Shown here: one piece after another, positions 7,890 through 49,348 of the stretch
Numbering within the stretch: the first letter of the stretch is position 1
Layout: every line of letters starts with the position of its first letter
Assembly (NCBI GenBank): GCA_018061755.1
Contig: JAGOTP010000001.1
Span: 1 to 64,000, forward strand
From: Patescibacteria group bacterium
Lineage (GTDB): Bacteria > Patescibacteriota > Patescibacteriia > 2-12-FULL-60-25
DNA: 64,000 nt
Reading direction: 5' to 3'
Translations under genes and position numbers: made by a program
Notes under the pieces: generated by a model
Told to the model about the DNA's origin: nothing
Database searches by the model: none
Seen by the model: only the letters and a program-made list of their open reading frames with translations

Positions 7890-8080
7890 TTTCATGTGGA
7901 TAAAGTAGTGAAAATATCCACATCTGTTTTCTCTTAAACTACAGTCTTTTTCTAGATATTTGTTGCAGAGAGAAGAACGTAAACAGTTTATACACAACAT
8001 ATACACATAAATAAAACATGTATTTTACGACACTTAATAAACAAGACAACTGAGCGAAGAAAATGATCTGTGTATAAACT
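7890..8080. other. Candidate chromosomal origin (DnaA-box cluster)
   Basis: Boxes seen: perfect TGTGGATAA at 7895-7903, ATATCCACA at 7914-7922 (one mismatch), TTATACACA at 7988-7996, and TGTGTATAA at 8069-8077. The DNA between the last two is strongly AT-rich, a plausible unwinding element. The whole 7015-8157 stretch lacks a credible ORF and carries two of the three parS-like sites; the third lies just upstream. Neither dnaA nor dnaN is in the window, so this rests on the motifs alone. Confidence 0.6.
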
Positions 8081-13435: not shown

Positions 13436-13492
13436 TTATACACAACTTGTCTACAATTTATCCACAAAACGTGTATACACAAGTTATTCACA
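13436..13492. promoter_or_regulatory. Second DnaA-box cluster
   Basis: TTATACACA (13436-13444), perfect TTATCCACA (13458-13466) and TTATTCACA (13484-13492), all in the same orientation within 57 nt, plus a GTGTATACAC palindrome at 13471-13480. It fills the gap between two surface-protein genes. It may titrate DnaA or regulate the gene at 13567. Confidence 0.6.
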
Positions 13493-46680: not shown

Positions 46681-47058
46681 TTAGAGTTCTTGCGTGAGCA
46701 ATTTTTTGCAGCTGACGCAGGAAGAAGAGTGCGGGCGGGCTTCCAAGCGTTTCAAATCAATGTCTTTACCACAGTACTTACAGGTACCGTAGGTTCCTTT
46801 TTCAATGGCCTCCAAGGCTTTTATGACATCGCGTAGCTGAGTTTCCAATTCACCAGCCAAGGATAATTCATCGGCGTAGGTTGAAACTTCCTCCGCGTTG
46901 TCGTCTTCGGAGTTGCTACCGCCTTCTGGATAGACAACGTTAAAAGTGGTACCGCCTTTGCCGTCTTTTTCGGCAATGTCGGCTAGGTCGGCTTCTAAGG
47001 CCGTTTTCATTTGATCCAACTTGATCTTCAAATCGGCGACGAGTTCTTTGGTAAGCAT
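46681..47058 (-). CDS. DksA/TraR-type C4 zinc-finger protein
   Basis: A 125-aa protein: a helical coiled-coil N-terminal 85 residues followed by YGTCKYCGKDIDLKRLEARPHSSSCVSC, with C93, C96, C114 and C117 as the zinc-finger ligands. DksA/TraR proteins enter the RNA polymerase secondary channel and tune transcription with ppGpp; whether it has the acidic coiled-coil tip needed is unclear. It is upstream of lspA and comM on the same strand, a common DksA-lspA arrangement. Confidence 0.88.
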   Translation of the reverse strand: MLTKELVADLKIKLDQMKTALEADLADIAEKDGKGGTTFNVVYPEGGSNSEDDNAEEVSTYADELSLAGELETQLRDVIKALEAIEKGTYGTCKYCGKDIDLKRLEARPHSSSCVSCKKLLTQEL

Positions 47059-47159
47059 AGATAAATTTGGTTGCTCAACATTTTACGGGGTTTTGCGAGG
47101 ATGAGCAAGGTAGTAAAAACGCAAGGGAAACATGAAAATTGATCTTTTCTTTAGAACTT

Positions 47160-48030
47160 TTAAAACTGAAGGAGCCGCGTGCCAGAGCTCCTCAGTCGTA
47201 GAAAACGACAGTGAGGGTAGGACAACGCGGCTCTTACGCCGTGCGAGATCGAGAGAAGTGAACCGTGAGGTCCATCAACTGATGAGAATCAGCCTGCCTG
47301 GGAAGGCGAGCGCGACACACGTCCCGTGAAGGGAACTCCTGGCTTCGAGCTGCTACTGAAAGCGGCAAGAAGGGTTGTATCAGAAGCGCAAAGCTGAAAA
47401 TCAGTTGACTCTCAAACGCAGGTGGCGTCAGAAAGATATGCAAGCCTTATAGACCGGCCTCCGGCGAATCAGCGCTCCCGGTGAAGGGATCAATGAGACG
47501 CTGTTAAGCATCAACATTGTGCTTTTCGCCTATTGGGTGGGCTTAAGTCTATTTTGGATGTTATGTGGTATGGCTCGCGAAGAACCTGAGTGAACAAGTT
47601 CTCTGCTTACCAGAGGACAGTCTAGGCTGATCGGTATACGTCTGCCGAAGCGGCGGACGAAACACCGAGTGACCACTTGCAGTAGAAAGAGCGACAACGG
47701 CGTAGGCGCGACGTTATCTTAGGCTCGGATTTCAGATCTCCAACGAAGTTGAAGAGCAAAACCGAGCATAAGACACGGCACGAACGACGAAGGTACAAAG
47801 GAAACACACCATCTGAATCCAACAAAGAGCGACAAAGAACAAGGAAGGAACAAGACGAACGCAATGGAAGCGTCTTAGATTGTCGCCACAGTAGGTGGCC
47901 CTAGATCCATCAACTGACCAACGAAGCACGATCACTTGATCGTGGAAAGAACGATGTAGAAAGAGCGTCTGTCTCGAACGGCTCCGAAAGCGGCTCTAGA
48001 GACATACTTAGTATAGCGCCTTTCCATTTT
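47160..48030 (+). ncRNA. Candidate large structured non-coding RNA
   Basis: About 870 nt without a credible ORF but dense in perfect or near-perfect hairpins whose loops are A/G-rich on the plus strand: AGCCGCGT (47173-47180)/ACGCGGCT (47225-47232), enclosing GTCGT-AGAAA-ACGAC (47195-47209); CTGAT-GAGA-ATCAG (47279-47292, GNRA loop); CTCTG/CAGAG (47601-47615); CGTCTGCCG/CGGCGGACG (47639-47659); GCTCGG (47723)/CCGAGC (47762), enclosing CAAC-GAA-GTTG; AAGACG/CGTCTT (47852-47876); GCCAC/GTGGC (47885-47899); CACGATC-ACTT-GATCGTG (47927-47944). Loops repeatedly read GAAA or AGAAA. The motif TCCATCAACTGA occurs twice (47271 and 47906). I found no signature of RNase P, tmRNA, SRP RNA or a group II intron. 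The strand and ends are inferred. Confidence 0.55.
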
Positions 48031-48046
48031 GCCTCACAACACAGCG

Positions 48047-48122
48047 TGTGGATAAGCGTGAATAATATATTCACTGAGCCAAAAATAAACCTTGTATTTT
48101 ATTATCCACAGCCTGTGAATAA
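48047..48122. promoter_or_regulatory. Third DnaA-box cluster
   Basis: Perfect TGTGGATAA at 48047-48055, perfect TTATCCACA at 48102-48110 (opposite orientation) and TGTGAATAA at 48114-48122, with AT-rich DNA between. It lies directly behind the structured region. Confidence 0.6.
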
Positions 48123-48124
48123 GC

Positions 48125-49348
48125 TTAGGACTCGCGACAAATCACCGAGCCAGTTTCTGTTTGCCACATCTGAAGAGGCTGTGGAGAGAGCCAAGCGGAA
48201 AAGCGCGATTGTGCAGGAATCAATCGAGCGACGAGTGTAGGAGAGATACGCACGAGCCAAGTTCCGCTTGCACAGGGAGTTGCAGCAAGAGTTGGAGCAC
48301 TGCTCGTCGTTCGCCAATCTGCCAAGGCTGGCGTGACAAGTGTCGAACTGCTGAATTCTGATCCAGGTTGTGACGCAATTTGTTCAACGGCGACGGTTCC
48401 ATCTGGAAGCGTGAGAAGCTCCTTCTCTATCGTTTGCTCTAAAAAAGAGCGCAGCACAGCTTGTTCCTTCGTTTGTAAGGGCTGATCAAATTCAAGTTGA
48501 AGCGTTGTAAGGCTTGTATCTGAGAAGCTCGCATTTATGACGGTTGGTGAATGCTTCAAAGAGGCGAGAAGCGGTGTGAGTTCTCCGAGCGGAAGAGCGG
48601 CGAGCAAAACATCCGACGGAATGGTTGTGGTTAGAGCGGCCAGATGCAAGCTGAGATCTGTTTGAAGCGGCGCACGGCTGGCCGAGGTTACCGAAGGAGG
48701 TTTGGCTGAAGAAGTCTCTTCTCGTTTATCGTTCAGAGTAAGGCGATCTTTATCGAAAAAGAAGCGAATTTGCCCCTCAGGTGAGCGATTGGCAAAAAAG
48801 ATCGACGGATCAAACCAACCCTGAACCGATCCCGCTTGAAAGACGTGGCTAAAAAAGTGGTCTCGATAGACGACGTCCATTTCTTTGGATGTTGGATTAT
48901 TTGAAGAGAGACCGATCTGGCGAACGAAATACTTCGTCTCAGCTTGGTTCTCAAGTAGAGGCTTTGGAACGGCCCAACGTGGTCCAATCACGAAGGGCTG
49001 CAGATCGAGACCCTTGCGCGCTAAACCAAACACGATCGGCCAGCTACTTTTTTCTTGAATCGTAGTTAGCCATTCAGTCGGAAGACTGTTTTTTTGTTCT
49101 GTGGTCAGCAGTCGATCCAAGACTTTGGGTCGAGCCGTTGCGAAAAAGACGGTGTCGGTTGGTAATGAAAAAGTTGCTGAGCACAAAAGGGTAAAACAGA
49201 TTCCAGCTAGGAGAAGACCAAATAAAGCGCCAATCGCAATGATCCAACGACGTCCAAAGCGCGAAGGCGACGTTCCCATGGCGAGCAATGGGCTCACGGG
49301 AGGGATCTGAATCTCGGATTCGGGAGAAAAGCCATCTTCCACGCGCAT
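48125..49348 (-). CDS. Single-pass membrane hypothetical protein (407 aa)
   Basis: A 407-aa protein with a cytoplasmic N-terminal 33 residues, one membrane helix (about 34-58, RRWIIAIGALFGLLLAGICFTLL) and a large exported domain. This contains DTVFFATARPKVLDRLL and later ALPLGELTPLLASLKHSP. No catalytic motif is seen. Its layout resembles DUF3352-like exported proteins (a repeating beta/alpha pattern around phage-shock-like sensors), a weak resemblance. It ends beside the third DnaA-box cluster. Confidence 0.7.
   Translation of the reverse strand: MRVEDGFSPESEIQIPPVSPLLAMGTSPSRFGRRWIIAIGALFGLLLAGICFTLLCSATFSLPTDTVFFATARPKVLDRLLTTEQKNSLPTEWLTTIQEKSSWPIVFGLARKGLDLQPFVIGPRWAVPKPLLENQAETKYFVRQIGLSSNNPTSKEMDVVYRDHFFSHVFQAGSVQGWFDPSIFFANRSPEGQIRFFFDKDRLTLNDKREETSSAKPPSVTSASRAPLQTDLSLHLAALTTTIPSDVLLAALPLGELTPLLASLKHSPTVINASFSDTSLTTLQLEFDQPLQTKEQAVLRSFLEQTIEKELLTLPDGTVAVEQIASQPGSEFSSSTLVTPALADWRTTSSAPTLAATPCASGTWLVRISPTLVARLIPAQSRFSAWLSPQPLQMWQTETGSVICRES

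Follow-up and report, generated by a model that had tools for sequence, protein, structure and literature searches.

Large, elaborate bacterial RNAs such as OLE, ROOL and GOLLD are supported by covariation, and their function is poorly understood (PMC12286853). The raiA-motif RNA of Bacillota and Actinomycetota, or ModT, is a noncoding RNA with a conserved structure and a length of a few hundred nucleotides; it is named after its neighbour gene and is reported to act in trans and to be as abundant as housekeeping RNAs (PMC11706538). Here, we describe using synteny, covariation analysis, covariance models, folding and motif comparison an RNA family of Patescibacteria that resembles both. It shares with OLE, ROOL and GOLLD the large size, the covariation support and the poorly understood function, and with the raiA-motif RNA the conserved structure, the length and the habit of being called after its neighbour. 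In contrast to OLE, ROOL and GOLLD, however, the new RNA of 400-850 nt matches none of their Rfam models and has a core of only about 200 nt. ROOL and GOLLD are found in phages and prophages near tRNA islands, whereas the new RNA is chromosomal and lies in a neighbourhood of core genes at about one copy per genome; the nearest tRNA in the window (the 64,000-nt stretch of DNA analysed here) is at 19.7 kb. Unlike the raiA-motif RNA, it stands beside dksA rather than raiA, has a different core, was found here in Patescibacteria and again matches nothing in Rfam. Similar to tmRNA and RNase P RNA, it is of comparable length, occurs once per genome and has a housekeeping distribution, but both of those RNAs are encoded separately here.

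The family is undescribed: it is not in Rfam 15, and no account of an RNA of this kind was found in the open PubMed Central text. The sequence-only reading had proposed a large structured noncoding RNA at 47160-48030, distinct from GOLLD, ROOL and OLE, and had suggested a covariance search against Rfam. That search left the region without a family at the gathering score, and at a permissive E-value gave only two snoRNA models (E = 1.1). OLE, ROOL, GOLLD and the raiA motif match the window at neither threshold, and Rfam models gave no match in 13 relative loci of family f1 or in 14 loci of other families, which supports the proposal.

An RNA family beside dksA

The gap at 47060-48125 of the window separates a dksA/traR-type zinc-finger gene (46681-47058, minus strand; Pfam PF01258), downstream of the RNA, from a 407-aa gene upstream of it (48125-49348, minus strand; no Pfam match), and both served as synteny anchors. 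All neighbours, the comM-like gene, lspA, dksA, the 407-aa gene, pnp and an NYN gene, share the minus strand, and the order pnp - 407-aa gene - gap - dksA - lspA - comM is kept in most genomes of the same family. The region 47160-48030 is indeed coding-poor, as had been noticed: its longest internal ORFs are of 80, 69, 67 and 65 aa, with no Pfam match among them. A search for a protein frame spanning the stems found none that is conserved, and the core of the relatives is full of frame-breaking indels; on these grounds the protein-coding reading was rejected. The region is also structured, with folding z-scores of -3.0 on the plus and -5.0 on the minus strand (20 shuffles per strand, none as good on either).

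A DNA similarity search of the region against 57 relatives matched only the region itself; its homology is visible by synteny alone. Loci of relatives were collected with dksA as the anchor, which is present in 52 of the 57 and yielded 40 neighbourhoods. The corresponding gaps are dissimilar to the window at the DNA level, yet similar to one another across genera, and share a core of 209 positions that comprises the helices P1, P2, P3 and P5 and an A-rich linker. Compensatory changes, for which a comparison of this intergenic region had been recommended, are clearly present in the family. In a plain MAFFT alignment of 17 cores, used for the first covariation test, 86% of the cells are paired as against 78% in shuffled alignments, double-change cells number 54 as against 19, none of 500 shuffles was as good, and sliding the partner by 1-3 columns lowers pairing to at most 46%. 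A 29-sequence alignment, itself fitted to the structure, holds 222 double-change cells versus 71 when shuffled; in this structure-fitted alignment three consecutive pairs of P3 are A-U, C-G and U.G (ACU/GGU) in 29 of 29 relatives. Further conserved pairs beyond P1, P2, P3 and P5, sought in the expanded alignment, gave no clear result. The model leaves unpaired two strongly conserved pyrimidine motifs, CACCUU on the 5' side of P1 and CCUUUCU on its 3' side; they look like the 3' tail of 16S rRNA, a likeness that may be due to chance.

On which strand is the RNA encoded? Purine-rich loops had initially suggested the plus strand, but the promoter, the terminator, the U.G pair and the motif chain all point to the minus strand. 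Of 38 members, 17 have a sigma70-type promoter with at least 10 of 12 matches ahead of the core on the RNA strand, and none has one on the opposite strand (0/38); a stable hairpin followed by a T-run within 320 nt after the core is found in 34 of 42 relatives, compared with 4 of 42 in the mirrored position. The U.G pair is kept on the minus strand only, and the plus-strand motif chain of the window scores 6.2, where shuffles average 13.8; the plus-strand RNA was rejected for these reasons. The balance of G.U over A.C pairs in the MAFFT alignment (56 versus 34; 39 versus 34 without the invariant pair) shows a slight preference for the RNA strand. In most relatives' folds the terminator hairpin directly follows helix P7. 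In families f40, f46 and f15 the promoter and the core are typically 41-57 nt apart (up to 119), so the RNA there would start almost at the core.

The first covariance model, R1, matched members outside its training set, with E-values that are to be taken as rough (L041, 2e-29; L035, 1e-23; L064, 2e-23; L034, 8e-18). The second, R2, places the RNA in 35 of the 41 genomes of the order, with one clear copy each, and in four further families of the class (f40, f46, f15 and f55), in records labelled Uhrbacteria, Magasanikbacteria or Patescibacteria group. By these searches the predicted RNA occurs in at least five families, all of one patescibacterial class, with a copy number of about one per genome. 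Full-length matches that were checked, even at E of about 1e-4, lie beside pnp and almost always beside dksA (the stretch L132 ends before dksA). R2 also gave weak partial matches across the phylum and class, at model positions of about 94-179; none adjoins dksA or pnp, and we therefore judged that the A-rich linker and a hairpin had been matched by chance. At one locus (L058 6116-6314, genome G027) the core match continues into the match to dksA, and P3 lacks conservation in its 3' half; this may be a truncated RNA gene or a faulty assembly.

The copy in the window

The homologue with covariation that had been called for thus exists for the family, but the window copy itself is undetected by all three covariance models (R1, R2 and R3), probably owing to large insertions in P2, P4 and P6. 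We scored a motif chain built from the family alignment and compared it with 1000 dinucleotide shuffles and 152 other slices of the window. On the minus strand it places the core, blocks A to E, at 47693-47432 with a score of 35.2, where shuffles average 13.8 (sd 5.6); this is a modest test, as 3 of the 1000 shuffles and 1 of the 152 unrelated slices reach that score. With this placement, CGCNCYTTNNACTGC, the P3 triple ACU/GGU and the P1 pairing UGCAAG/CUUGCA are all kept. The RNA also lies between pnp/the 407-aa gene and dksA on the dksA strand, and on this strand has its own sigma70-type promoter and the P7-P8 layout, with a weak terminator U-run. Membership is supported by synteny, strand, motif chain, the ACU/GGU that is invariant in P3, and the layout of P7 and terminator, evidence that is strong but indirect; the window copy is probably a divergent member of the family, the most divergent known.

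All parts of the window copy are on the minus strand. The promoter, TTGTGA-N18-TATACT at 48010-48039, has conserved counterparts in relatives and would set the start site near 48003. Three DnaA-box-like sites, two of TTATCCACA and one of TTATTCACA, are located upstream of it at 48047-48122 (strand unspecified). Similar sites are seen upstream of the RNA promoter in several relatives, and further clusters of TTATCCACA lie at 7895-8077 and 13436-13492 of the window, in which sites of this type with at most one mismatch number 24 against 11 expected. Between the start site and the core, the promoter-to-core distance leaves a lineage-specific 5' extension of about 310 nt (47694-48003) that is structured in the minus-strand fold and that other families, in their short forms, lack. 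The predicted window RNA is about 850 nt long, and most of its extra length is this extension together with enlarged hairpins. Its estimated span, from about 48003 to 47160, agrees closely with the limits of 47160-48030 that were drawn from the sequence alone.

The core begins with the conserved 5' motif CGCTCTTTCTACTGC at 47679-47693 (family: CGCNCYTTNNACTGC), assigned by motif chain and family consensus. The 5' strand of P1 is UGCAAG (47676-47681), whose position agrees with P1 of the family and whose partner CUUGCA (47439-47444, motif chain) leads into UAUCUUUCU (family: GCAGUNCCUUUCU). The motif chain locates the 5' strand of P3, UCAGCCUAGACUGUCCUC with the invariant ACU, at 47613-47630, and its 3' strand GGCCGGUCU at 47451-47459 pairs with AGACUGUCC (47615-47623) and keeps the A-U, C-G and U.G triple. 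In between, at 47535-47568, are the A-rich linker and the 5' strand of P5 (CCACAUAACAUCCAAAA ... UUAAGCCCACCC), for which the family consensus is GAAANCAAAAANCAAAA followed by GGCANCCTC. In the minimum-free-energy fold of the 3' part (47442-47120), P7 comes directly after the CUUUCU motif, with ACGCC at 47424-47428 and GGCGU at 47236-47240, two nucleotides before P8 as in relatives. P8 (47171-47233) is a terminal GC-rich hairpin in the same fold, followed by UUCAGUUUUAAAA; as a terminator it is weak here, at only -11.1 kcal/mol and with a weak U-run. The nested pair that had caught the eye at 47173-47232 is real and corresponds to this 3' hairpin. Likewise real is the 12-nt motif seen near both ends, which extends to a 15-nt direct repeat (47268-47282 and 47903-47917); its two copies, read on the minus strand, could pair with one GUCAACUGAU segment and might compete for it.

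An independent gene or a dksA leader

What kind of gene is this? We consider it likely that the window carries an independent minus-strand noncoding RNA gene, the most divergent member of the undescribed family, whose product probably acts in trans. Computational support covers the existence of the family and its core structure, as well as the strand, the promoter and terminator, the low copy number and the synteny. In most genomes the RNA immediately precedes dksA on its strand, with a terminator-like hairpin before the gene, as a long cis-regulatory leader would be if it sensed some signal and the hairpin decided on read-through into dksA. In one genome, however, the RNA is on the strand opposite to dksA, with the order of the neighbouring genes kept (G012, L064 4940-5171); dksA is 7 kb from the RNA in L045 and about 1 kb in L138, and is not within the stretches retrieved around the RNA in L139, L141 and L142. 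An RNA that is inverted in one genome and apart from dksA in others argues for an independent gene rather than a dksA leader, and its own promoter and terminator, together with a position independent of dksA, favour action in trans. As the RNA is in addition larger and more complex than known attenuators, we regard the leader reading as quite improbable.

A family that is real could nevertheless have lost or replaced its RNA in the window species, which would leave an unrelated or decaying structure at this site. The failure of R1, R2 and R3 to find a window copy, the weak terminator of the window and the G027 copy with its 3' half apparently missing are what loss would predict. Set against this are the minus-strand fold at z = -5, the promoter, the P7-P8 layout reproduced by the minimum-free-energy fold, the invariant ACU/GGU and the rarity of such a motif chain among shuffles; no other copy was found in the window genome by the R2 search. 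Loss or replacement is therefore given only a small chance. Neither does the RNA seem to be one of the known housekeeping RNAs in diverged form (SRP RNA, 6S RNA, tmRNA or RNase P RNA), which about one copy per genome across the family and a length of a few hundred nucleotides might suggest, as might SRP RNA models that match nothing in these genomes (RF00169 and RF01854, 41 genomes of the order; the SRP domain-IV pattern occurs at control level only). SRP RNA's protein partner, however, is equally missing: the Ffh M domain (PF02978) was found in none of the 41 genomes of the order, and among 381 genomes of the class no match passed the cut-off; it was detected in 14 of 14 control genomes. With neither SRP RNA nor the Ffh M domain found, identity with SRP RNA is excluded. 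A match to tmRNA (RF00023) is elsewhere in the genome, at G000:C30:135961-136385, with none in the region, and RNase P RNA (RF00010) is matched on G000:C18. For 6S RNA, Rfam gave no match to the members searched, and the multibranched core differs from the long hairpin with a central bubble of 6S RNA. This reading is accordingly very improbable. Separately, the signal recognition particle seems to be absent from the class, and no paper stating so was found in the open PubMed Central text.

A possible role in reduced genomes

How might an independent RNA of this kind work? Transcription would start at its own sigma70-type promoter near 48010 and give an RNA of about 850 nt that ends at the hairpin 47171-47233. 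In its core, P1 would enclose the hairpin P2 and the long helix P3, and P3 in turn would carry the hairpin P4, the A-rich linker, which is conserved, and the arm of P5 and P6; on the 3' side would follow a branched domain that P7 closes and then the terminator hairpin P8. The A-rich linker may dock into P3 and so produce a compact fold, and the single-stranded arms CACCUU and CCUUUCU that flank P1 could contact a partner that belongs to the machinery of transcription or translation. Transcription of the window RNA, action in trans, the tertiary contact and the partner are what we infer from these features; contact with that machinery, the weakest step, is tentative and perhaps rather doubtful. 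The RNA is most likely stable and of housekeeping type, a role that we liken to that of the raiA-motif RNA (PMC11706538).

The covariance models and coordinates make the RNA directly testable in existing transcriptomes, and the alignment is deep enough for structure work. The presence of about one copy per genome in genomes of about 1 Mb that dropped many standard genes points to a task that is likely important. A housekeeping RNA kept at about one copy per genome through much of the class, with a fold not seen before (P3 with its invariant ACU/GGU segment, and an A-rich linker), could, though we think it unlikely, supply the RNA component of an essential and as yet undescribed ribonucleoprotein in bacteria that have lost the signal recognition particle; if this were true, that ribonucleoprotein would carry out a core task of the cell in a way that no known bacterial RNA does.
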